This document shows positions 18,599 to 30,389 of a stretch of DNA of 45,366 bases, in pieces. A program made the translations under genes and the position numbers. Origin of the DNA: Bacteroidota bacterium (GTDB taxonomy: Bacteria > Bacteroidota > Bacteroidia > Chitinophagales > Chitinophagaceae); the NCBI GenBank assembly GCA_005788265.1, contig SXYR01000161.1, positions 1 through 45,366 of the forward strand. The letters run 5' to 3'. Within the stretch, counting starts at the first letter, position 1, and every line of letters begins with the position of its first letter. The notes under the pieces were generated by a model. The model was not told the DNA's origin. It made no database searches and worked only from the letters and a program-made list of their open reading frames with translations.

Positions 18599-19677
18599 TT
18601 TTTTGAAAAAATATTGTCCAGCTTCAATCGCAACTGCTCCCCTCGTAGGTTTTTTCCAATGATCTTGCCATCCGGATCAATCAGATAGTTTTGCGGGATG
18701 CTTTGAATTTTATATTGAACTGCTACTTCATTGCTCCAAAACTTTAAGTCACTCAGTTGGGTCCAGGCAAGTTTGTCATCCTGAATGGCCTTCAACCATG
18801 GTTCACGTGCCCTGTCCAATGAGACACCCAACACGGTGAAATTTTTTTCTTTGTATTGATTGAATGCACTGACCACATTTGGATTTTCCTGTCTGCATGG
18901 ACCACACCAACTCGCCCAAAAATCAAGCAAGACATACTTCCCTCTGAATGAAGAAAGTTTAACTTCCATCCCACTGATATCTTTTTGGGAAAAGTCTGGC
19001 GCCATAGTTCCCACTGCACCAAACTTTGCATCCGCAGCCATCTTTGCTGCCATCTTCCCGTAATAGTTATTCTTTGCCTGATCTGAAATAACAGCCAACC
19101 TGTTTTCCATCACCATGGGATCATCGCTCAATTGCATCATGACGAGCACCACAAATGGTGCAACCGGAGAATTGCTATGTGTTTTTACGAAATCATCTCC
19201 GAATCGATTGGCATCAACAACCTGTTGTTCGTAATTTTTTCTAACTGCCTCGTCTTTGTTGCCCTGATTGATTTGCTGTGCCAACGCACTCAACTTTTGT
19301 ATGATTGGCGAGTAGTTGGTATTGAATTGAAAGAAATCAAAGGTTGTTTGAGAACCGGTAATCTTAGCTGTTTGCAGAGTCTTGAAATCACCTTCGATGG
19401 ATATCTCAGCTGGATCCATGAACAAAAAAATATTTTGCTGTGACCCCTTTGCTGTAAGCTTGTACAATCCTGGTTCTTTGATTTCACCCTTGAGCTCAAA
19501 ATTTTCTCCCTTGGATGTTCCTTTTGCAAGCGGCTCTGGGTCTAGTTCTTCGTTCTGAAGAAGTATTTCTGTTTTGTCAGGCATACCTTTGAATATACCC
19601 TTGATGGTGAATTTCCCAGTTTGTGCTAATAAAAATCCAGGCAATACGATCAGTGTCAGTAGCAATGATTTTTTCAT
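18595..19677 (-). CDS. TlpA-like thioredoxin-fold protein with DUF4369 domain
   Basis: A 360-residue secreted protein. It has a signal peptide (residues 1-19, ending FLLAQ), a DUF4369-type beta domain (about 22-110), a helical middle, and an AhpC/TSA-thioredoxin domain from about 220. The redox motif is WCGPC with C258 and C261, and the cis-proline loop is SIPQNYLID. It probably reduces disulfides or supports cytochrome maturation in the periplasm, as TlpA/ResA proteins do. It is the last gene of the trp-his array: its ATG overlaps the hisIE stop (ATGA), so translation is coupled to amino-acid biosynthesis genes although no metabolic link is obvious. Confidence 0.88.
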   Translation of the reverse strand: MKKSLLLTLIVLPGFLLAQTGKFTIKGIFKGMPDKTEILLQNEELDPEPLAKGTSKGENFELKGEIKEPGLYKLTAKGSQQNIFLFMDPAEISIEGDFKTLQTAKITGSQTTFDFFQFNTNYSPIIQKLSALAQQINQGNKDEAVRKNYEQQVVDANRFGDDFVKTHSNSPVAPFVVLVMMQLSDDPMVMENRLAVISDQAKNNYYGKMAAKMAADAKFGAVGTMAPDFSQKDISGMEVKLSSFRGKYVLLDFWASWCGPCRQENPNVVSAFNQYKEKNFTVLGVSLDRAREPWLKAIQDDKLAWTQLSDLKFWSNEVAVQYKIQSIPQNYLIDPDGKIIGKNLRGEQLRLKLDNIFSKN

Positions 19678-20276
19678 TTTTTATGGCGTTGTTGCAGGAC
19701 CTGCTTCACATCTTGCAAAGCATATCCTTTTGCGTTTAACAATATTAAATAATGAAACAGCAGATCAGCAGCTTCGTTGAGAAACAATTCACTGTTTTGG
19801 TCTTTAGCCTCAATGACCAGTTCAACTGACTCCTCCCCAACTTTCTGGGCAATTTTGTTGATTCCTTTTTCAAAAAGGGAGCGAACATAGGAAGAGGGAT
19901 CGTTTGAATTTTTTCGCAATACAATGATTTGTTCGAGCTGTTTCAAAAAATCATCAGATTGGTTGACTTCTCCCCAACAGGTATCCGATCCTGTATGGCA
20001 TGTTGGACCAGCGGGTTTGACTTTGAACAACAAGGTATCATGGTCACAATCAACTTCACATGATTTTAGATGCAGAAAATTTCCGCTTTCCTCCCCTTTC
20101 ACCCAAATCCGTTGTTTGGACCTGCTGTAAAAAGTTATTTTTTCGGTTGCCATGGTAAGATCGAAAGCTTCCTGATTCATAAATCCCATCATAAGCACCT
20201 TGCCTGTATCAAGGTCCTGCATGATAGATGGAACGAGTCCGTCGTGGTATTTTGAAAAGTCAACTTTAATCGACAT
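19674..20276 (-). CDS. hisIE: Bifunctional phosphoribosyl-AMP cyclohydrolase / phosphoribosyl-ATP pyrophosphatase
   Basis: A 200-residue fusion. The HisI domain occupies about 1-105, with VLMMGFMNQEA, RIWVKGEESGN and SCEVDCDHDTLLFKV (zinc/Mg ligands). The HisE domain fills about 110-200, with SYVRSLFEKG, GEESVELVIEAK and EAADLLFHYLILL. It performs the second and third steps of histidine synthesis (PR-ATP to PR-AMP to ProFAR). The order HisI then HisE is the usual fusion. It sits 24 nt after hisF; its stop overlaps the start of the TlpA-like gene. hisG, hisD, hisB and hisC are not in the window. Confidence 0.96.
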   Translation of the reverse strand: MSIKVDFSKYHDGLVPSIMQDLDTGKVLMMGFMNQEAFDLTMATEKITFYSRSKQRIWVKGEESGNFLHLKSCEVDCDHDTLLFKVKPAGPTCHTGSDTCWGEVNQSDDFLKQLEQIIVLRKNSNDPSSYVRSLFEKGINKIAQKVGEESVELVIEAKDQNSELFLNEAADLLFHYLILLNAKGYALQDVKQVLQQRHKK

Positions 20277-20300
20277 GGCTGTAAATTTACTGAATGGTTT

Positions 20301-21053
20301 TCATCTTACAGGAATTTGCCTGTTTCTTAAGAATGCTTTAAGATCTGGAATAGCAATTTCCTTGAAATGAAATATACTCGCAGCAAGAGCTGCATCGGCT
20401 TTCTGACTTAAAACCTCCAAAAAATGGGCAGGCGTACCACCTCCTCCTGAAGCAATGACTGGGACACTTACCAAGGATGAAACACTGTTGGTAATGTCCA
20501 ATGCAAAACCGTTTTTAGCACCATCGTGATCCATCGATGTCAGCAAAATTTCTCCCGCACCTCTTTTCACCCCTTCTATGGCCCAATCAGTACATTTTAC
20601 GGCCGTTGAAACAGTCCCACCGTTTAAATACACATACCAGTTGCCATCTTCATGCTTTTTTGCATCAATGGCAAGAACAATGCACTGGCTGCCAAATGCA
20701 GCAGCAAGTTCATTGATTAAATCAGGACGCTTGAATGCAGCGGTATTGACTGAAATTTTATCTGCACCTGCATCCAGTAATACCCTGACATCTTCTACAG
20801 AACTTACTCCACCGCCAACTGTGAAAGGAATATTGATGGCATGAGCAATTCGATTTACCAACGATGCCAATGTTTTGCGTTTTTCATTGGTTGCCGTGAT
20901 GTCCAAAAAAACCAATTCATCTGCACCCTGTTCTGCATAAAATCCCGCCAATTCGACTGGGTCACCTGCATCACGTAAATTTACAAAGTTGGTTCCCTTT
21001 ACAGTTCTGCCATCTTTTATATCAAGACATGGTATGATTCTTTTTGTGAGCAT
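20301..21053 (-). CDS. hisF: Imidazole glycerol phosphate synthase cyclase subunit
   Basis: A 250-residue (beta/alpha)8 barrel, normal HisF length. The catalytic D11 is in [10 protein letters not shown]; the other general acid/base aspartate lies in VLAIDAKK (about 130). Phosphate loops are FTVGGGVSS and VIASGGGGT. With HisH it turns PRFAR plus ammonia into imidazole glycerol phosphate and AICAR, the branch to purines. It begins 1 nt after the hisA stop, so coupling is likely. Confidence 0.97.
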
Positions 21054-21054
21054 A

Positions 21055-21783
21055 TTATTTGGATGCTTTTATAAACTCCTCTAATTCATGAATGCTTATT
21101 TTATTCTCATAAATGGCCTTCCCAATGATTACACCATCACATTGAACAGCTTGTAATGTATGAATATCTCCCATACATGAAACCCCACCGCTTGCAATAA
21201 TAAATGCCGAAGGAAACTCTTTCTTTAATTCTTCATAAAGCATATATGATGGCCCTTCGAGCTTGCCGTCTTTTGAAATATCGGTACAGAATATATTTCT
21301 CAGGCCCTTGTTTACATATGATTCCAAAAATGGCAACAATTCCAACTCAGATCTTTCTATCCATCCACTTACCATGATTTTGCGATCTTTTACATCTGCA
21401 CCAAGCAAGAAACGATCTGCACCAAAATATTTAATCCATTCAGAAAAAAGAGCAGGCTCTTTTACTGCAATGCTTCCAACTGTCACATATCGTATACCGA
21501 GTGATATAATCCTTTCTACATCTTCTCTCGTTTTTACACCTCCTCCGAAATCTATTTCCAAATTTGTATGCATTGAAATTGCTTCAATGGAACGCCAGTT
21601 CAATACCTTTCCAGCCTTTGCCCCATCTAAATCCACCACATGCAATCGCTTGATTCCATGTTGCTCATATTTCTTGGCCATCTCCAGTGGAGAGGCATTG
21701 TATACGCTTTTCTGCAAATAATCCCCTTCAGTAAGACGTACGCATTTCCCATCTATGATATCTATGGCTGGAATGATCTGCAT
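21055..21783 (-). CDS. hisA: ProFAR isomerase (HisA)
   Basis: A 242-residue (beta/alpha)8 barrel related to HisF. The catalytic aspartates are D8 ([15 protein letters not shown]) and the one in [13 protein letters not shown]. Phosphate-binding loops are DFGGGVKT and IASGGVSC. It isomerises ProFAR to PRFAR by an Amadori rearrangement, feeding HisF-HisH. Spacing is 1 nt from hisH and 1 nt to hisF. TrpF does the same chemistry on PRA, and a separate trpF is present, so this is not a dual-function PriA. Confidence 0.97.
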
Positions 21784-21784
21784 A

Positions 21785-22375
21785 CTATATGTCTAAAAAA
21801 TTTTGAAGGATTTTACCACCCACCTCTGCACTTTTTTCAGGATGAAACTGCACCCCATAGAAATTATCCTGATTCAACGCAGCGCTGTATTGCAAACCAT
21901 ACGCTGCATTGGCGATGGTATGCTGGCCCAAGCTGGCATAATATCCGTGAACAAAATAACAATAACTGTTTTCGGAAACTCCATCAAAAAGAGGTGTCTT
22001 TAAATCAAAAATATTGTTCCAGCCTATTTGAGGAATCTTCAAATGAATAAGATCCACATTGAATTTTTTTACTTCTTCTGGGAATATACCCATGCAGGCG
22101 GTGTTGTTTTCTTCAGAATAGTGACACATCAATTGCATGCCAAGGCATATACCTAAAAAGGGTTGCTTTGCATCCGCAATGATTTGATCTAGATTCCGCT
22201 CTTTTAAATAACGCATCGCACTGCTTGCTTCACCTACTCCTGGAAAGATAATTTTATCTGCAGAAAGAATTTCGGCTGGATCATCTGTCAATATCGATGA
22301 AATGCCTAAACGCTCCAGCGCAATTTCAACTGACTTCACATTGCCAGCATTGTATTTTATGATAGCGATTTTCAT
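21785..22375 (-). CDS. hisH: Imidazole glycerol phosphate synthase glutaminase subunit
   Basis: A 196-residue class I glutamine amidotransferase with nucleophile C78 (LGICLGMQLM) and partners H178 and E180 (GVQFHPEKS). The opening IIKYNAGNVKSVEIAL is typical. It supplies ammonia to HisF. Its ATG overlaps the trpA stop codon (ATGA), the physical join between the tryptophan and histidine gene blocks. Confidence 0.97.
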   Translation of the reverse strand: MKIAIIKYNAGNVKSVEIALERLGISSILTDDPAEILSADKIIFPGVGEASSAMRYLKERNLDQIIADAKQPFLGICLGMQLMCHYSEENNTACMGIFPEEVKKFNVDLIHLKIPQIGWNNIFDLKTPLFDGVSENSYCYFVHGYYASLGQHTIANAAYGLQYSAALNQDNFYGVQFHPEKSAEVGGKILQNFLDI

Positions 22376-23163
22376 TGTAAAATAGAACGTATGAATGTTT
22401 GTGTGGCCGCTGTATAATTGACCTCTTTTTGCAGCTGGTGGATGAATGCAGATCCAATGATGCCCCCATTTGCATGCCCGCTGATCAGATGAAAAGACGC
22501 TTTGTCTTTGATACCAAAACCAACCAGGATAGGATTCTTAAGTTGGTATGCATTCAATCGATCAATATAAGAAACCACTGCATCCATGTTCTTTTCTTTA
22601 CCGGTAGTAGAGGAAGAAGATACAGCATATAAGAAACCACTGCTCAATTGATCTAATTTTCTTACACGCTCTTCGGATGTCTCAGGTGTCACCAAAAAAA
22701 TAAAATCCAATCCATGCTGTTTCATAATTTCTCCATGCGACTGCTCAAATTCAAATGGAGGAAGATCTGGCAAAATCAGTCCGTCAATTCCAACTTCGGC
22801 GGCCTTCTTACAAAAAGCCTCAAATCCAAATTGCATGACTGGATTCATATAACCCATCAGGATAACAGGAATATGAATTTCATTCCTGAAAGATTTCAAT
22901 TGATCAAACAATGCTGCGATAGACATTCCATTCTTCAAAGCAACAGCGCTGCTTTCTTGGATAACCGGACCATCAGCCAGAGGATCACTGTAAGGCATTC
23001 CCAATTCAATGATATCAACACCCTCAGCTTGTAAAACCCGCATGATTTCAACAGTACTCTTTTTTTCAGGGAAACCTGCAGTGAAATAAACATTCAGTAC
23101 CCCGGTTTTCTTTTTTTCAAATAAATCTTGAAGACGTCCCATTGTTGAATCTTTATTGCTCAT
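22372..23163 (-). CDS. trpA: Tryptophan synthase alpha subunit
   Basis: A 263-residue (beta/alpha)8 barrel with the family signature IIELGMPYSDPLADGPVIQ, which holds the catalytic glutamate. The second catalytic aspartate is in GLILPDLPP, and GFGIKDKAS and GGIIGSAF form the phosphate site. It cleaves indole-3-glycerol phosphate to indole and glyceraldehyde 3-phosphate; indole is channelled to TrpB. It overlaps the trpB end by 11 nt and the hisH start by 4 nt. Confidence 0.97.
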   Translation of the reverse strand: MSNKDSTMGRLQDLFEKKKTGVLNVYFTAGFPEKKSTVEIMRVLQAEGVDIIELGMPYSDPLADGPVIQESSAVALKNGMSIAALFDQLKSFRNEIHIPVILMGYMNPVMQFGFEAFCKKAAEVGIDGLILPDLPPFEFEQSHGEIMKQHGLDFIFLVTPETSEERVRKLDQLSSGFLYAVSSSSTTGKEKNMDAVVSYIDRLNAYQLKNPILVGFGIKDKASFHLISGHANGGIIGSAFIHQLQKEVNYTAATQTFIRSILQ

Positions 23164-24346
23164 TCATCGCATTCATGTAGGTAGAAAGATCTTTATCACC
23201 TCGGCCACTCAAACAAATCACAGACACTTCCCCTTTTTGTAACTGCAGATCTCCCAATACTGCAAAAGCATGTGCAGTTTCCAATGCGGGAATAATGCCC
23301 TCTAATTTTGAAACTTCAAATGCTGCATGCATTGCCTGCTCATCAGTGGCAGATAAAAATCTGCCTCTACCGCTTGAGAAAAGATGAGCGTGCATGGGAC
23401 CAATGCCAGGATAATCCAGACCAGCTGATATGCTATGCGGCTCGACAACCTGCCCATCAGATGTTTGCATCACAATGCTTTTGCTTCCATGCAAAATTCC
23501 AGGAACACCCAATTGAGTCGTCGCAGCACTTAATCCACTTGTAATACCATGACCAGCCGCTTCAACGGCAACAATTTCAACCGAAGGTTCATCTAAAAAA
23601 TGATAAAAAGCACCCGCAGCATTGCTGCCACCGCCAACACAGGCTATCACGCGATTGGGAAGAGGATTGCCGGTTTTTTCTTGCAATTGAGCTTTCATTT
23701 CATGGCTGATCACAGATTGAAACTTCGCAACCATGTCAGGATAAGGATGCGGCCCCACAACTGAACCAATGATATAATGTGTATCAGTAGGATTGTTGAT
23801 CCAATCACGTATGGCTTCATTGGTTGCATCTTTCAAAGTTTTGCTGCCGCTGGTAGCAGGAATCACTCTTGCCCCCAACATTTTCATGCGAGCAACATTT
23901 GGAGCCTGGCGATCGATGTCTTTTTCACCCATGTAAACAATGCATTCCAATCCTTTCAAAGCACAAACTGTTGCGGTTGCTACACCATGCTGCCCTGCCC
24001 CGGTTTCAGCGATGATGCGTTTTTTTCCCAATCGTTCTGCCAATAAAATTTGTCCAATCGTATTGTTGATTTTATGTGCGCCGGTATGACAGAGATCCTC
24101 TCTTTTCAAATAGATGATTGAACCATATTTTTCACTCAACCGTTCCGCCAAAAAAAGCGGGGTGGGCCTGCCAACATAATCCTTTAAAAGAGCATGAAAA
24201 TCACGCTGAAAAATCGGATCATTATAAATCTCTTGATAAGATTGCTGCAAATGCTCAACATTCTGGAACAACATTTCCGGGATAAATGCACCGCCAAATG
24301 GACCGTAATAGCCCTGCAGATCTGGCGCTGTGAATGTTTTATTCAT
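23153..24346 (-). CDS. trpB: Tryptophan synthase beta subunit
   Basis: A 397-residue PLP enzyme of the TrpB1 type. The opening GYYGPFGGAFIPE and the PLP lysine K92 in CHTGAHKINN are present. GAGQHGVATA and the glycine-rich phosphate loop CVGGGSNAAG are also seen, as is SGRGDKD near the end. It joins indole and serine to give tryptophan in an alpha2beta2 complex. It overlaps trpF (8 nt) upstream and trpA (11 nt) downstream, so the cluster is translated as a coupled unit. Confidence 0.98.
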   Translation of the reverse strand: MNKTFTAPDLQGYYGPFGGAFIPEMLFQNVEHLQQSYQEIYNDPIFQRDFHALLKDYVGRPTPLFLAERLSEKYGSIIYLKREDLCHTGAHKINNTIGQILLAERLGKKRIIAETGAGQHGVATATVCALKGLECIVYMGEKDIDRQAPNVARMKMLGARVIPATSGSKTLKDATNEAIRDWINNPTDTHYIIGSVVGPHPYPDMVAKFQSVISHEMKAQLQEKTGNPLPNRVIACVGGGSNAAGAFYHFLDEPSVEIVAVEAAGHGITSGLSAATTQLGVPGILHGSKSIVMQTSDGQVVEPHSISAGLDYPGIGPMHAHLFSSGRGRFLSATDEQAMHAAFEVSKLEGIIPALETAHAFAVLGDLQLQKGEVSVICLSGRGDKDLSTYMNAMNEQ

Positions 24347-24983
24347 GGCTGATTTTTTTTAGTTGATTTTTGAATTGCTCTACTTTTTCTAAATCCTTTA
24401 TACCTGGTTCTCTTTCAAATTTGCTATTGATATCTATTGCAAACAATTTATCTGCATGGATGTTGAAATCCAATACCATATTTACATCTTCTGGTCCAAT
24501 TCCCCCACTTAAAAAATATGGACGTGTCAAAGGTATTGACAATTGCTGCCAATTGAACTTCAACCCTGTTCCACCATGTGCTTCAGCCTTGGTATCAAAC
24601 AAAAACGAATCAACCTCCCCGTATGGCAATGTTAGTTCTTCCAAACGGTCTTCATTCCCTACCCGAAATGCTTTGACCACCTTGCAATATTTCGAAGCCT
24701 GTTTACAATAAACAGGTGATTCCTGCCCATGTAGTTGAACAAAATCCAATTTCCATCTTTCAGCTACTTTGAACAGGTTCTCAATTGGCTCATCCACAAA
24801 AACACCCACTCTTAAAATTTCCATCCTGGATATCAACTCGATCTCTTGAGCAGTTATTTTTTCAGCAACATACCTGGATGATGAAGGATAAAATATAAAA
24901 CCTGCGAAATCAATACCCATTTCCGCGAGAGATTGCACCTGGTTGAAATCCGTCATTCCGCAAACTTTGATTTGTAAACTCAT
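24339..24983 (-). CDS. trpF: Phosphoribosylanthranilate isomerase
   Basis: A 214-residue barrel with catalytic cysteine C8 in IKVCGMTDFNQV. FAGFIFYPSSSRYV follows, and the catalytic aspartate is in FLFDTKAEAHGGTGLKF. The phosphate site is LSGGIGPEDV. It converts PRA to CdRP. The overlap with trpC is 4 nt. A stand-alone TrpF is the usual Bacteroidota form, as opposed to the enterobacterial TrpC-TrpF fusion. Confidence 0.96.
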   Translation of the reverse strand: MSLQIKVCGMTDFNQVQSLAEMGIDFAGFIFYPSSSRYVAEKITAQEIELISRMEILRVGVFVDEPIENLFKVAERWKLDFVQLHGQESPVYCKQASKYCKVVKAFRVGNEDRLEELTLPYGEVDSFLFDTKAEAHGGTGLKFNWQQLSIPLTRPYFLSGGIGPEDVNMVLDFNIHADKLFAIDINSKFEREPGIKDLEKVEQFKNQLKKISHE

Positions 24984-25762
24984 CCCAATTTATTTATGAA
25001 ATTGTTAAGTGCCTGACCCGGATCAGATTGTCTCATAAAATACTCTCCGATTAAAAATCCCTTGTACCCATGATCAAGAAATATTTTCACCTGTGATGGA
25101 TCATCTATCCCACTCTCTGCAACCTTGATTTTATTGGACGGAATTTGTTCAGCCATTTTCAAACTGCGATCAATATTTACATCAAATGTTTTCAGACTTC
25201 GGTTATTGATTCCAACCAACTGAACCTCATCACAAATATGACCAAATTCGTCTTCGTCATGCAATTCCAACAATACTTCCATTCCGATTCCAACAGCCAA
25301 TGCTGCCAGCTGTCTAACCCGAGCTGGTGTCAGACAAGCTGCAATCAACAGAATAAAATCTGCCCCAATCGATTTTGCCTCATGCACCTGATATTCATCG
25401 ATGATAAAGTCTTTGCGAAGAATGGGTATGGATATGCTTGAACGGATAGAAATGATATCCTGGGTTGTCCCACCAAAAAATATTTCATCTGTCAAGATTG
25501 ACAAGGCAGAAGCACCTGCGTGCTGATATGCATTTACAACATGTGACAATTCCAATTGATTGTTTATGATTCCCTTTGAGGGTGACCTGCGCTTGTGTTC
25601 TGCAATGATACCAGATCCACCTGGATGATTCAAAGCTTCACTGATTGAAAAGCAATCCCTCTCATAAAGTGCAGAATTCATCAGCATATTTTCTGGGAGT
25701 CGATGTTTCAAATCATCAACCTCTTTCCTTTTTTGTTGTACAATCGTATCCAGGATGTTCAT
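24980..25762 (-). CDS. trpC: Indole-3-glycerol phosphate synthase
   Basis: A 260-residue barrel. The family start ILDTIVQQKRKEV is present, and GIIAEHKRRSPSKG holds the catalytic lysine. The phrases ALSILTDEIFFGG, PILRKDFIIDEYQ, GINNRSLKTF and VAESGI follow in family order. It closes the indole ring from CdRP. The gap to trpD is 2 nt. The usual order of conserved phrases is intact, and I see no truncation. Confidence 0.96.
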   Translation of the reverse strand: MNILDTIVQQKRKEVDDLKHRLPENMLMNSALYERDCFSISEALNHPGGSGIIAEHKRRSPSKGIINNQLELSHVVNAYQHAGASALSILTDEIFFGGTTQDIISIRSSISIPILRKDFIIDEYQVHEAKSIGADFILLIAACLTPARVRQLAALAVGIGMEVLLELHDEDEFGHICDEVQLVGINNRSLKTFDVNIDRSLKMAEQIPSNKIKVAESGIDDPSQVKIFLDHGYKGFLIGEYFMRQSDPGQALNNFINKLG

Positions 25763-25764
25763 TG

Positions 25765-26757
25765 CTATTGGAGTTGAATGAGTTTTTTTAATGCGGCATA
25801 GGCCTTTCCACCCAATAAACTGTCTTTGGCTGATTCATAGGCTGATTCATAGTTTTGAAATTTTCCCGATAACATGAGCCCCATGGCTGCATTCGAACAA
25901 ACAACTGCATTTTGTGAAGCAGTCCCTTTGCCTTGAAGAATACACATGAATTTTTCAACTGCAGCATCTACCGTTTCGCCACCATAAATTTCATCTGGGC
26001 GCACCACCATACCACCCAATACATTCGGATGATATACTTTCTCTCCTTGTTTGGTAATGACTTTTGAATCAGCAGTAAGTGAAATTTCATCATACCCATC
26101 TAGAGAATGAACAATAGCGAATGTTGAATTTTCACTTTGAAGCAAATAATTGTAGAGGCGGGCTATTTCAAGGTTGTATACACCAATCAGTTGAAATGCA
26201 GGCCTGGATGGATTTACAACGGGTCCTAACAGGTTGAAAAAAGTTCTCACTTTGAGATTTTTTCGAATGGGTCCAACTGTTTTCAAAGCTGGATGAAAAA
26301 AAGGAGCATGCAGAAAGCACATGTTAGAAGCATCCAGCTCTTTTCTCAATGCATCCTGGTTATTTTTAAATACATAGCCAATTCGTTCCATGAGATTGGA
26401 AGCTCCACTGATACTGCTGGCACCATAATTACCATGTTTCGCAACGGGGAAACCTGCACCAGCAATGATAAAGCAAGAAAGGGTTGAAATGTTAAATGTA
26501 TTCTTCCCATCTCCACCCGTTCCTACCACATCCATGACCTCTCTGTGCTGGAAATCAATTGAAACTGAAAGTTCCAACAATGCATCTCGGAAGCCCATGA
26601 GCTCATCCAACGTAATGCTTCGCATGAGATAAACAGTCATAAACGCACTCAATTCATGCTCATTGTATTCACCTTTTCCAATGGAAACCAGAATCTGTCT
26701 CGCATCTTCTCTTGTGAGTGTTCTGTGTTCGAATAAATAGTTCAATACTTTTTTCAT
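25765..26757 (-). CDS. trpD: Anthranilate phosphoribosyltransferase
   Basis: A 330-residue type III phosphoribosyltransferase, a normal TrpD length without a fused TrpG. Motifs: the PRPP site VVGTGGDGKNTFNIST (about 79-94), KHGNYGASS, and MGLMLSG near the C-terminus. It attaches phosphoribose to anthranilate. It overlaps the end of trpG by 4 nt. The GTGGDG glycine loop and the HGN motif mark it clearly. Confidence 0.96.
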   Translation of the reverse strand: MKKVLNYLFEHRTLTREDARQILVSIGKGEYNEHELSAFMTVYLMRSITLDELMGFRDALLELSVSIDFQHREVMDVVGTGGDGKNTFNISTLSCFIIAGAGFPVAKHGNYGASSISGASNLMERIGYVFKNNQDALRKELDASNMCFLHAPFFHPALKTVGPIRKNLKVRTFFNLLGPVVNPSRPAFQLIGVYNLEIARLYNYLLQSENSTFAIVHSLDGYDEISLTADSKVITKQGEKVYHPNVLGGMVVRPDEIYGGETVDAAVEKFMCILQGKGTASQNAVVCSNAAMGLMLSGKFQNYESAYESAKDSLLGGKAYAALKKLIQLQ

Positions 26758-27356
26758 GCATTATTTTTTTTGGGAGACAACCAATTTTCAATCATTTGTT
26801 TGCCGTTGGTTGTTAAAATACTTTCAGGATGAAATTGTACACCCTGCACATCAAATTTCTTGTGGCGAAGTGACATGATCATTCCATTTGCATCCATAGA
26901 GGTAATTTCCAATTCATTGGGCAATTGATCCTTTCCAACAACCCAACTATGGTACCTTCCTACTGTCAATCTCTGATCCAATCCTGTATACCAATCATTG
27001 CCTTTAACGGACGATTTGACATTATTACAAATTTGTATTTCAGTAGATACGCCATGGTATACATTCGGAAGATTGATCAATCCGGCACCGAAGGCTTGCC
27101 CAATTGCTTGCTCACCAAGACATACACCAAAAATGGAATGTGTTGGGGCATATCGTTTGATCAAATCAAGCAGGATGCCTGCCTCCTCTGGAATACCCGG
27201 CCCAGGTGACAATAAAATCCTGTCGTATGCCGCAACCTCATCGATCGAAATTTCATCATTTCTGAAAACATCCACCTGATCACCTATGATTTCCCTTGTC
27301 AGGTGAACAAGGTTATAAGTAAACGAATCATAATTATCCAAAACCAGCAATTTCAT
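26754..27356 (-). CDS. trpG: Anthranilate synthase glutaminase subunit
   Basis: A 200-residue class I glutamine amidotransferase: family start LLVLDNYDSFTYNLV, LLSPGPGIPEEAG, nucleophile C79 in FGVCLGEQAIG, and VQFHPESILT near the end. It feeds ammonia to TrpE. The usual GVCLGHQ histidine is glutamate here (CLGEQ); that residue is not catalytic in the family. The ATG at 27356 is preferred over an in-frame GTG at 27365. Because pabA is often the same protein in bacteria, it may also serve p-aminobenzoate synthesis. Confidence 0.95.
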   Translation of the reverse strand: MKLLVLDNYDSFTYNLVHLTREIIGDQVDVFRNDEISIDEVAAYDRILLSPGPGIPEEAGILLDLIKRYAPTHSIFGVCLGEQAIGQAFGAGLINLPNVYHGVSTEIQICNNVKSSVKGNDWYTGLDQRLTVGRYHSWVVGKDQLPNELEITSMDANGMIMSLRHKKFDVQGVQFHPESILTTNGKQMIENWLSPKKNNA

Positions 27357-27375
27357 TGAATGCACTTTTATGATA

Positions 27376-28812
27376 TTATTTTTGGTGAATGGTGGATGCC
27401 AGTTGAATTGCTTTTTTCAATGCACCTAATTTATTGTTGACCTCCTGCAGTTCTTTCTCTGGCACACTTGATGCAACTACTCCTGCTCCGGCTTGGTAAT
27501 AGAGGGTATTGTTTTTACTCAAAAAACTTCTGATCAGTATAGCATGATTGAATGATCCGTTGAATCCAACCATACCAATAGCACCGCCATAAAAGGAGCG
27601 CTTGGTTGGCTCGTATGCATCAATCAATTCCATTGCCCTGAATTTAGGGGCGCCACTAAGTGTTCCTGCAGGAAATGTATTGGCCATGAGAGAAAATGGA
27701 TTTGCATCACGCTTGGCAGATGCAATCACCTCGCTGACCAAATGAATAACATGAGAATAAAATTTAACCTGACGGTATTGAGATACCTGTACATTCTCGC
27801 AAACCCTGCTCAGATCATTTCTTGCCAAGTCAACCAACATTACATGTTCTGCATTCTCCTTGGGATCTTGCAGCAATCGTTCCGCTTCCTTCCTGTCCAT
27901 GGCGTCGTCACCCGTGCGTTTAAAAGTACCAGCAATGGGATGAACAGTAGCTTTTCCGTTGCCAACGATCAGCTGACTTTCAGGTGAAGAGCCCATGAGT
28001 CGGTACTCACCGTAATCAAAATAGAATAGATAAGGCGAGGGATTGACCATGCGCAAAGCCCTGTATACATTGAATTCATCGCCTTTGAAAGATTGCTCAA
28101 ACCTTCTGCTCAATACAATCTGGAACACATCCCCTCGATTGCAGTGTGCAATGCCCTTTTGAACCATCTCGATAAAGGACTGGTCAGTCAAGTTCGAAGT
28201 CTCATCTCCCTCAGCACTGAATGGAAACTGTGGCAAGTCTCTACCGTAAATGATGTCTTCTATCATATGAGCGTCACCCTCAACCCCTTCAACATGGTTT
28301 TGGAGCAAGATCATTTCATCTTTATGGTGATCGATTGCAATCACAAATTGATACAATCTGTACCTCATGAGAGGAATAAAATCGTTGTTGGATGATGCAT
28401 GCAATTCATATCCTTTTTCCTTGAATTGCACGGTTTCAAAAAATGTTACTGCATCAAATGCTGTATATCCATAAAGCCCTTGTGCATACCCTTCTTCCTT
28501 GAATTTTTGTTCCACATCATATTGTTGCATGTAATTCCATATCAAATCAGGAATCTGGTCATCCGACAATTCAATTTTTTCTGGAGTTGCCAGAGGATAT
28601 TTAAACTCTACTGTTTGACTTGAAGTGATTTCTATTCCACCGATCGCGTTGATTGCGATAAAAGAAAAACTGTTCTCCGAAGTATGGTGATCGGTGCTTT
28701 CCAATAAGATCGTATCCCTGAACTTATCACGCAACCTCAGGTAAATGCCAACCGGCGTATAAAGGTCTGCCGGCATCTTTTTAAAACTGGTACTTAATTT
28801 AATTTTTTTCAT
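27376..28812 (-). CDS. trpE: Anthranilate synthase component I
   Basis: A 478-residue chorismate-utilising enzyme. The N-terminal LLESTD motif (about 36-41) matches the LLES tryptophan-binding site, suggesting feedback inhibition. Catalytic-domain motifs are FQIVLSRRF, SPYLFYFDYG, HPIAGTFKRTG, LVDLARNDLSRVC and FPAGTLSGAPK. It makes anthranilate from chorismate with TrpG. It is the first gene of the array. The only space between it and an upstream terminator hairpin is about 20 nt, which argues either for attenuation or for a promoter overlapping the hairpin (see findings). Confidence 0.97.
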   Translation of the reverse strand: MKKIKLSTSFKKMPADLYTPVGIYLRLRDKFRDTILLESTDHHTSENSFSFIAINAIGGIEITSSQTVEFKYPLATPEKIELSDDQIPDLIWNYMQQYDVEQKFKEEGYAQGLYGYTAFDAVTFFETVQFKEKGYELHASSNNDFIPLMRYRLYQFVIAIDHHKDEMILLQNHVEGVEGDAHMIEDIIYGRDLPQFPFSAEGDETSNLTDQSFIEMVQKGIAHCNRGDVFQIVLSRRFEQSFKGDEFNVYRALRMVNPSPYLFYFDYGEYRLMGSSPESQLIVGNGKATVHPIAGTFKRTGDDAMDRKEAERLLQDPKENAEHVMLVDLARNDLSRVCENVQVSQYRQVKFYSHVIHLVSEVIASAKRDANPFSLMANTFPAGTLSGAPKFRAMELIDAYEPTKRSFYGGAIGMVGFNGSFNHAILIRSFLSKNNTLYYQAGAGVVASSVPEKELQEVNNKLGALKKAIQLASTIHQK

Positions 28813-28835
28813 GTTCTTTCTCCAACATCATTTAA

Positions 28836-28862
28836 AAAATAAAGCCCCGATAAATCGGGGCT
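28836..28862 (-). terminator. Intrinsic terminator / possible attenuator before trpE
   Basis: On the minus strand: stem AGCCCCGAT / ATCGGGGCT around a short TT-containing loop, followed at once by TTATTTTTT. The plus strand has no T-run after the stem, so the hairpin acts on minus-strand transcripts. It lies between smpB and trpE, ending about 20 nt before the trpE ATG. It may simply end the smpB transcript, or control readthrough into trp. Confidence 0.85.
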
Positions 28863-28872
28863 ATTGTATATG

Positions 28873-28983
28873 TTACATAACAAGATTGTCTACCCCTTTT
28901 AAGAGATAGTATGCCAACCGTTGTTTGTGTTCATTGATTTCATTCAAACAAAATTGCATAAAAAGATTCATAAATCCAAGCAT
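28873..28983 (-). CDS. Candidate 36-codon small ORF in the trpE leader
   Basis: An ATG-to-TAA frame on the minus strand encoding 36 residues: a hydrophobic opening (MLGFMNLFMQFC) and a mixed, helix-like second half with EINEHKQRLAYYLL. It contains two tyrosines and no tryptophan codon, so it is not a classical trpL leader peptide. Its stop codon lies 11 nt before the terminator stem. A shorter start at M9 is possible. No Shine-Dalgarno-like sequence is clear. It could be a real small protein, a regulatory leader or chance; I recognise no family. Confidence 0.3.
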   Translation of the reverse strand: MLGFMNLFMQFCLNEINEHKQRLAYYLLKGVDNLVM

Positions 28984-29013
28984 TTTTGCATTTTAAAAGA
29001 ATATGCCTGAAGC

Positions 29014-29448
29014 CTATTTCACAAAACGCTTTATTTCGCGGTCAGATTCTCTTTGTTTGATGCTTTCCCTCTTGTCGTGAAGCTTTTTACCCTTGCCCAA
29101 TCCAATTTTCATTTTTGCATATCCTCTTTCGTTGAAATAGATGCTGAGCGGTATGATGGTAAACCCCTTTTCCTTCAGTTTCTGGGCTATTTTATCCAAC
29201 TCCTTTTTTTTGAGCAGCAATTTTCTCTCTCTGGTGGGATTGTGATTGGCATAACTGCCGAATTCATATGGCGAAATATGCAGTCCTTTTACGTAGAGTT
29301 CACCCCGATCAAGCAGGCAATAACTGTCATTGAAGCTTACCCTTCCATCGCGGACGGCTTTCACTTCGGTTCCAGTCAACATCATACCTGCATCAAATTT
29401 TTCTTCGATGAAATACTCGTACGAAGCAGACCGATTCTTGATTTCCAT
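29014..29448 (-). CDS. smpB: SsrA-binding protein SmpB
   Basis: A 144-residue protein with the SmpB oligonucleotide-binding core: NRSASYEYFIEEKFDAGM, LTGTEVKAVRDGRVSF, YANHNPTRERKLLL and IGLGKGKKLHDKRE. The C-terminal tail is basic (KQRESDREIKRFVK). It delivers tmRNA to stalled ribosomes for trans-translation. The normal family length is about 145-160. It lies 23 nt after accD on the same strand, at the end of the topoisomerase IV/accD cluster, before the 200-nt trpE leader region. No tmRNA gene is visible in the window. Confidence 0.97.
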   Translation of the reverse strand: MEIKNRSASYEYFIEEKFDAGMMLTGTEVKAVRDGRVSFNDSYCLLDRGELYVKGLHISPYEFGSYANHNPTRERKLLLKKKELDKIAQKLKEKGFTIIPLSIYFNERGYAKMKIGLGKGKKLHDKRESIKQRESDREIKRFVK

Positions 29449-29471
29449 CGTAAGTTGACCAGTTGATTATA

Positions 29472-30389
29472 CTAACTGGCAAATAAGGAGAGCAGTGTCG
29501 CAATTTTATTCTTAAGCTCTTTTCTTCCAACAATCATATCCAGAAAACCATGCTCGATTAGGAATTCCGAAGTTTGGAATCCCTCTGGAAGATCTTTTTT
29601 GATGGTTTCTTTGATGACCCTGGGGCCCGCAAATCCAATCATGGCGCCAGGTTCACCAATATTTACATCCCCCACCATGGCAAATGATGCCGTTGTGCCA
29701 CCATAAGTTGGGTCAGTGCAAAGGGATATATAAGGAATACCTGCTACTGCAAGTTTGCTGAGTTTACCTATGGTTTTGGGAAGCTGCATCAATGAGAATG
29801 CGCTTTCCATCATCCTGGCACCTCCACTTTTGCTGATGATCATTAGAGGAATCCTGTGTTGAAGACAATACTCAGCAGACCTAGCAATTTTCTCCCCCAT
29901 GACACTTCCCAATGAACCGCCAATAAAATTAAAATCCATACAAGAAATAACCAGGTCCTGTCCATTTACTTTTCCAACTGCTGCAGTAATGGAATCATGG
30001 AGTCCGGTTTTGCTGTAGGCTTCGTCCAGTCGCTTTTTGTATGGTTTCAAATCATTGAACCCCAGAAAATCAATTGACTTAACCTCTTCAAACAACTCTG
30101 TATATTGATGATCGTCGAATAAAATGTCAAAATACTCTTCGCTCCCTATGCGGTGGTGATAGGTGCATTTTGGACAGACTGAGAGATTGATTTTCAGTTC
30201 ATCGGTGGTACAGGTGTATTTGCAGGAAGGACATTTGGTCCAGAGTCCGTCAGGTGTTTCTTTTTTTTCAGCAGTCGATGTGCTTATCCCCTTTTTCCGT
30301 CTTTTGAACCAACTGCTAGAGGATGTTTCCTGCTCAGGCATTGAACCTGAAAGCTGTGCATTAAAGTCTTCTTCTCTTTTAAGTGCCAT
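29472..30389 (-). CDS. accD: Acetyl-CoA carboxylase carboxyltransferase subunit beta
   Basis: A 305-residue protein from the ATG at 30389. A longer frame to 30545 runs into parC and is rejected. The zinc ribbon uses C53, C56, C72 and C75 (CPSCKY and CPKCTY). The carboxyltransferase core has FNFIGGSLGSVMGEK, SGGARMMES and TYGGTTASFAM. It transfers carboxyl from biotin to acetyl-CoA, the first committed step of fatty acid synthesis. Many homologues start near SWFKRxKKGI, so the 26 residues before that phrase are extra; the ATG at 30341 would shorten them. It lies 79 nt downstream of parC; accA is not in the window. Confidence 0.95.
   Translation of the reverse strand: MALKREEDFNAQLSGSMPEQETSSSSWFKRRKKGISTSTAEKKETPDGLWTKCPSCKYTCTTDELKINLSVCPKCTYHHRIGSEEYFDILFDDHQYTELFEEVKSIDFLGFNDLKPYKKRLDEAYSKTGLHDSITAAVGKVNGQDLVISCMDFNFIGGSLGSVMGEKIARSAEYCLQHRIPLMIISKSGGARMMESAFSLMQLPKTIGKLSKLAVAGIPYISLCTDPTYGGTTASFAMVGDVNIGEPGAMIGFAGPRVIKETIKKDLPEGFQTSEFLIEHGFLDMIVGRKELKNKIATLLSLFAS

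Follow-up and report, generated by a model that had tools for sequence, protein, structure and literature searches.

A candidate tryptophan attenuator with a Trp-His leader peptide ahead of a joined trp-his operon in the Chitinophagaceae

Transcription attenuation has been worked out mainly in Proteobacteria. The Escherichia coli trp operon is governed by a ribosome-mediated attenuator whose leader peptide, trpL, contains Trp codons, and the attenuators of the thr operon (Thr and Ile codons) and the ilv operon (Ile, Val, and Leu codons) carry codons for several amino acids in one leader. A survey by Lopatovskaya, Seliverstov and Lyubetsky reportedly may cover Bacteroidetes. According to the accessible text of the respective reports, the leader transcript of Sinorhizobium meliloti trpL starts at the leader ATG and encodes the 14-amino-acid peptide peTrpL (PMC7298713), Bacteroid-trp RNA (Rfam RF01692) is a probable cis-regulatory RNA (Weinberg et al. 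2010, PMC2864571), and the trp genes of Thermoflavifilum thermophilum and Filimonas lacunae interrupt the his operon, possibly as parts of one operon (PMC8305728). Our literature search turned up neither a trp attenuator from Chitinophagaceae nor a Trp/His leader, which is weak evidence of absence given that the subscription literature lay mostly outside the search; a trp-his leader element was likewise not found in the accessible portions of PMC2965389, PMC4833913, PMC1173090, and PMC1183508.

The window, a 45,366-nt stretch of a Chitinophagaceae genome, carries on its minus strand smpB (29014-29448), a 201-nt gap, trpEGDCFBA-hisHAFIE (28812 down to 19674), and a thioredoxin-like gene. The gap contains an element that, judging from comparison among relatives and from modeled folding, is very probably a ribosome-mediated Trp attenuator and possibly one that reads both Trp and His (Table 1). 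A preliminary description of this DNA had proposed a candidate attenuator before trpE, and the leader, terminator, and pairings compared across the family bear this out; it had missed a 14-codon leader with Trp and His codons and the continuation of the operon into hisHAFIE. A terminator scan gave no terminator-like site at the trpA/hisH junction, and hisH-A-F often follow trpA in the trp operons of relatives. Elsewhere in the window, a Bacteroidales small SRP RNA (RF04183, 85.6 bits) lies at 2755-2861 on the minus strand.

Table 1. Genes and putative regulatory features of the trp-his locus, in window coordinates and in order of transcription
Feature	Position	Strand	Basis
-33 promoter-like element, TTGG of TTTTTTGG-like box	28976-28979	-	conserved in alignment of 21 near relatives and in 185-leader profile
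-7 promoter-like element CAATTTTG	28949-28956	-	TTYG 3-10 nt before in-frame leader ATG
Leader ORF MKSMNTNNGWHTIS*, 14 codons	28899-28943	-	counterpart ORF in 21/21 distinct near relatives
Trp control codon TGG (putative)	28914-28916	-	invariant in 21/21 near relatives
His codon CAT, candidate second control codon	28911-28913	-	His in control window of 127/127 hisH-linked and 28/45 unlinked leaders
Region 1 core CTATCTCT, partner of region 2	28902-28909	-	window fold; 1:2 swap test
Region 2 AGGGGTAG, contains GGGGT 28892-28896	28890-28897	-	2:3 swap test
Small hairpin TGTT-ATGT-AACA (TGTTATGTAACA) within antiterminator	28871-28882	-	fold with ribosome at Trp codon
Terminator AGCCCCGA-TTTA-TCGGGGCT	28843-28862	-	sequence inspection
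Region 3, terminator 5' arm	28855-28862	-	sequence, alignment
Region 4, terminator 3' arm	28843-28850	-	sequence, alignment
Terminator T tract	28833-28842	-	sequence
trpE	27376-28812	-	closest NCBIfam model TIGR00564 trpE_most, below curated cut-off
trpG	26754-27365	-	TIGR00566 above cut-off
trpD	25765-26757	-	TIGR01245 above cut-off
trpC	24980-25762	-	NF001377 above cut-off
trpF	24339-24983	-	closest model NF002298, below cut-off
trpB	23153-24346	-	TIGR00263 above cut-off
trpA	22372-23163	-	TIGR00262 above cut-off
hisH, 4-nt overlap with trpA	21785-22375	-	TIGR01855 above cut-off
hisA	21055-21783	-	TIGR00007 above cut-off
hisF	20301-21053	-	TIGR00735 above cut-off
hisIE	19674-20276	-	PF01502 and PF01503

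The leader ORF MKSMNTNNGWHTIS (codons ATG AAA TCA ATG AAC ACA AAC AAC GGT TGG CAT ACT ATC TCT TAA) holds one Trp codon followed by one His codon, and its stop codon lies immediately before region 2. For comparison, trpE homologues were searched in 60 related genomes, of which 57 matched and the best 30 became loci; with 80 further loci kept from GTDB contigs and six added upstream regions, this gave 116 loci and 108 distinct upstream regions. By program, a short ORF with at least one Trp codon precedes trpE in all 108, the pick being doubtful for L112, where the WW leader was chosen by eye. With L112 miscalled in both counts, the Trp run comprises three codons in 76 regions, two in 9, and one in 23, and the codon after the run is His in 95 of 108; wider relatives mostly read WWWH, and the window reads GWH. 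The ORF, which we take to be translated, would thereby place Trp codons in the control position of an attenuator. Leader and terminator together were detected automatically in 102 regions, and in the remaining six (L046, L060, L112-L115) the Trp-codon ORF is visible by eye. Among the loci from other families, L113 (WWWA) and L114 (WWWP) lack hisH in the sequence retrieved beyond trpA, and in L115 (WWWN) hisB lies immediately upstream and the retrieved sequence does not include trpA. In L050 and L085 the Trp leader starts approximately 360 to 460 nt upstream of trpE, versus the usual 130 nt or so, with extra sequence between terminator and gene, and in one genome (L304 and L386; G342) trpA and hisH are linked, yet no Trp leader was found before trpE.

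The window's 21 distinct near relatives, one clade in the TrpE tree, all carry one Trp codon with His directly after it (two His codons in L015, L020, and L022) in an alike N-x-W-H context, and their alignment shows no change in the Trp codon, in the GGG of region 2, or in the terminator core. A W-H leader in all 21 compares with 0.34 expected from Markov shuffles. Among 83 others, a WW-His leader was observed within 250 nt in 66 and within 600 nt in 72, with 0.02 expected by chance.

Promoter-like boxes that resemble the -33/-7 promoters of Bacteroidota stand just before the leader ORF, which begins 5 nt past the nearer box. We profiled 202 distinct leaders, 200 of them scorable, and found TTYG 3 to 10 nt ahead of an in-frame leader ATG in 185, against 176 of 1,881 other ATGs in the same sequences, with a TTTG/TTGG box some 20 nt farther upstream than the -7 box. 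The complete TAnnTTYG form occurs in 41 leaders, as its first base is more often C than T. The placement of these boxes suggests that transcription starts at or beside the leader ATG and that the leader is probably leaderless. It also makes unlikely the transcript start near 28825 that had been offered as a way to reduce the hairpin to a terminator of smpB. The preliminary description had given the deciding role to a ribosome terminating on a 36-codon ORF (28873-28983), which lies in a different frame from the leader. This ORF is present, but among the 21 near relatives only the window itself (L001) has such an ORF, of at least 25 codons and ending near the stem, and it starts upstream of the conserved promoter-like boxes; we rejected it as the leader.

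An intrinsic terminator precedes the first trp gene, as expected of an attenuator. The hairpin, GGGGT (28892-28896), and the TGTTA/TAACA palindrome (28871-28882) are all present as previously reported. The fold of the 139-nt leader is better than that of most shuffled sequences (z = -2.45, 4 of 200 shuffles as good). In 19600-29500, 10 terminator-like sites were found where 7.4 +/- 3.6 were expected, so that these sites by themselves are not above chance. What goes beyond chance is conservation: the hairpin, region 2, and the Trp-codon ORF recur before trpE of relatives.

Folding and pairing were assessed in 107 of the 108 leaders (L112 left out), the pairing by permutation tests that ignore relatedness. 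The duplex of region 2 with the leader's own terminator 5' arm (2:3) averages -13.1 kcal/mol versus -11.2 (sd 0.2) when partners are permuted, with none of 10,000 permutations as low and shuffled region 2 giving -7.2 kcal/mol; the duplex of regions 1 and 2 averages -18.7 versus -15.3, again with 0 of 10,000 as low. The 2:3 signal stems largely from lineages in which both partners differ. For example, in Ferruginibacter-like leaders (L075, L077, and L082) region 2 contains GUGUC and forms its duplex with a matching part of the arm and loop of the terminator; Chitinophaga leaders use a different 2:3 pair, with region 2 at -16.1 for its own terminator versus -5.0 and -6.5 for the terminators of the two main groups. 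For L106, its own terminator ranks 47th of 107 as partner of its region 2. Conservation of the alternative pairing, which had been named as a check on the attenuator, therefore holds across the family; within the 21 near relatives the pairing barely varies and the check is uninformative, with no own-partner preference (-11.1 own, -11.2 swapped) and zero compensatory pairs in RNAalifold. The antiterminator postulated earlier, GGGGT with GCCCC, is borne out by the pairing test and by the fold with the ribosome stalled at Trp, in which GGGGU:GCCCC encloses the mini-palindrome as a small TGTT/AACA hairpin. Antiterminator and terminator hairpins are predicted to be mutually exclusive, as in an attenuator.

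To model ribosome positions, 13 nt were masked from the A-site codon, and the GC bases of the terminator 5' arm were scored as held upstream when their probability exceeded 0.5. In the model, the antiterminator holds the arm upstream in 107 of 107 leaders with the ribosome at the last Trp codon and in 107 of 107 with the ribosome one codon further (His in most), in 3 with the ribosome at the stop codon, and in 41 without a ribosome. Masks of 9, 11, and 15 nt give 8, 5, and 0 leaders at the stop codon and 107, 107, and 105 at the next codon. In the window the values are 0.82 at Trp, 0.46 at stop, and 0.63 ribosome-free, so that its switch appears less sharp than most. Counting of GC bases alone was adopted because the AT bases of the arm blurred the all-base measure, by which the window's states are not separated (0.53 at Trp, 0.60 at stop, 0.47 free) and 16 of 107 leaders exceed 0.4 at the stop codon. 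When the ribosome is moved codon by codon, antitermination is favored up to two codons past the last Trp (+2, 96 of 107) and drops at +3 (29 of 107); in the upstream direction it fades gradually (103 at -3, 73 at -6), and the strong range in the window is -1 to +2. Whatever the ribosome state, the complete terminator prevails at equilibrium, with a mean probability of 0.81-0.85 in the full transcript, so the switch would have to be kinetic, with the antiterminator forming first, as in known attenuators. Weighing against the attenuator is the lone Trp codon of the window, which is few for such a system.

We propose that transcription would begin at or next to the ATG of the 14-codon leader ORF. 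When charged tRNA-Trp is scarce, the ribosome would stall at the Trp codon and cover region 1, region 2 (GGGGU) would then pair with the terminator 5' arm, and with this antiterminator formed RNA polymerase would read through into trpEGDCFBA-hisHAFIE. When Trp is plentiful, the ribosome would reach the stop codon and block region 2, the terminator would form, and transcription would end about 20 nt before trpE. Because the His codon directly follows Trp inside the same control window, a ribosome starved for His would probably cause readthrough too.

With smpB on one side, trpE on the other, and a T tract at its end, the hairpin could be no more than the terminator of smpB, with the trpE promoter downstream of or within it. 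The genes upstream make this scarcely credible. As upstream neighbor, smpB was found in 21 of 207 regions and hisB in 39, and the leader ORF, the pairings, and the terminator recur before trpE also behind hisB or other genes; promoter-like boxes ahead of the leader likewise fit poorly. Since the element stays with trpE under varied upstream genes, we rejected this explanation. The 39 regions with hisB directly upstream of the trp leader include L063, L064, L069, L096, and L097, and in such regions the trp operon and its attenuator thus sit within the his operon. A TnaC-like arrest peptide, sensing free tryptophan instead of charged tRNA, is very unlikely for other reasons. The lone Trp codon in the window's lineage and its alike N-x-W-H context would suit such a peptide, but wider relatives mostly carry WWW, the pattern of codon sensing, and the logic would be reversed, as TnaC induces Trp breakdown at high Trp. 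A ribosome-mediated Trp attenuator remains our reading of the element.

Whether the His codon belongs to the sensor is a question that gene content can address. Using a control window of -3 to +2, chosen after the codon scan, we found a His codon in all 127 hisH-linked leaders and in 28 of the 45 that are unlinked (172 distinct TrpE rows; Fisher p 9e-12, not corrected for descent). Linkage in set 2 was called from coordinates, and in the downstream stretches checked hisH appeared in 0 of 30 unlinked and 9 of 9 linked loci; in 10 of those 30, trpA is missing from the stretch and trpE stands apart, so that hisH might adjoin trpA elsewhere, and three of the 10 (L234, L255, and L257) have no His codon. 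G233, at first placed among the unlinked genomes, was counted as linked because its contig has the same length as that of L084, whose hisH is in two pieces. Left out of the count were L304 (linked, leader not found), L315 (linked, WWWH by eye, missed by the program), L237, L249, and L260 (linkage not called at the time of the count; L260 is in fact linked, with His), L112-L115 (other families), L116 (outside the tree), duplicates, and 25 of the 107 set 1 rows, L112 included, for which linkage was not called. When no hisH comes after trpA, a thioredoxin-like gene mostly takes its place (13 of 15 in one count, 18 of 20 in another), and in 3 of 8 inspected genomes of this kind hisH follows a hisB-like ORF (Pfam-confirmed for one), with no call by the script in the other five. 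The unlinked L056 and L236 have kept both the His codon and an upstream hisB.

Codons for both Trp and His thus fall within the stretch where stalling favors antitermination, and a single attenuator may read the supply of both amino acids and coordinate two unrelated pathways fused in one operon, a proposition to which we give even odds. The attenuator may instead sense Trp only, with the His codon kept for RNA pairing or another reason, an explanation we regard as a real possibility if somewhat short of an even one. The His codon adjoins region 1, it is retained in many unlinked leaders as counted above, and in 10 of the 17 His-less unlinked leaders the site carries Gln (CAA/CAG), keeping the bases CA. 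Given the His runs in leaders ahead of hisG, a single His codon may carry little weight. The use of both CAT (121) and CAC (29) speaks for the amino acid, as do five linked leaders without His right after the Trp run, which have His elsewhere in the control window (HWWWQ in three, WWWQH, and WWGH), a placement seen in none of the 17 unlinked leaders without it. The HWWWQ leaders (L106, L307, and L311) may represent one event. Every one of 13 inferred His losses, and the single gain as well, maps to an unlinked branch; such branches make up 30% of tree length (binomial 1.3e-7). The mapping used Fitch parsimony with arbitrary ties on one quick tree and has linkage lost 9 times and regained 6 times. 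By counts and by loss mapping, the association of the His codon with linkage is strong. An independent-pairs test, though consistent in direction, was not significant (8 starred pairs, 1.8 agreeing and 0.0 opposed, median p 0.5), nor was it with 82 rows (3 starred pairs, same p), which leaves room for sensing of Trp alone. If the attenuator does read both amino acids, the window's lineage may have been rebalanced from three Trp codons and one His codon to one Trp and one or two His codons, a scenario that, taken jointly with dual reading, receives half of our credence. Dual sensing, if true, would offer a natural example in which control codons track the genes that an operon contains, with the His codon free to be lost where the trp operon is without hisH; it would make regulatory-codon evolution testable across sister genomes and would amount to a compact two-input RNA switch.

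Leaders of hisG were viewed alongside. In the window's own genome (L329, G000:C30), hisG is on another contig, with a leader ORF MSVIVNKHHHHFSPRG about 120 nt before it and, after this ORF, a GGCTTGCC...GGTAAGCC hairpin and T tract, a candidate His attenuator. Runs of at least three His codons were seen in the hisG leaders of 15 of 19 loci examined, a count without a chance control; of the remainder, L328 has a weaker His run, and L331, L339, and L341 were not called by the script, L341 having HHH behind a GTG start. The window's genome therefore seems to have a putative His attenuator ahead of hisG as well as a Trp-His leader in front of the hisHAFIE-bearing operon.

Attenuation itself is a known mechanism, and neither Rfam nor our paper searches yielded a description of this family-wide variant with a Trp-His leader. 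Rfam searches at gathering score gave no match in the window's leader or in the trp leaders of 20 loci. A T-box was matched neither in the window at gathering score nor by any of the 13 hits obtained in 28700-29100 with a limit of E 5; these 13 scored far short of their gathering thresholds (best E 0.21), and we read them as sequences that resemble terminators. Bacteroid-trp RNA belongs to the same phylum and its name points to trp genes, and it was rejected as the identity of this element after 0 of 40 genomes (the window's own and relatives, up to 63 candidates scored in each) gave a match, the Bacteroides control being positive. With S. meliloti trpL/peTrpL the element shares a 14-amino-acid leader peptide and, on the putative start proposed here, a transcript that begins at the ATG; no His partner or his genes are mentioned in the accessible text of that report (PMC7298713). 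The fused his operons of T. thermophilum and F. lacunae share with the relatives surveyed here trp genes inside a his operon, and the accessible text describes no leader peptide for the fused operon, its sole mention of attenuation concerning E. coli and Salmonella (PMC8305728). The E. coli trp attenuator is alike in its leader ORF with Trp codons, its competing 1:2, 2:3, and 3:4 hairpins, and its terminator before trpE, whereas the leader here has one Trp codon and then His, is probably leaderless, differs in sequence, and precedes an operon that also contains hisHAFIE. Control codons for more than one amino acid in one leader are shared with the thr and ilv attenuators, but the amino acids read there share pathways, whereas Trp and His belong to separate pathways that are joined here in one operon.
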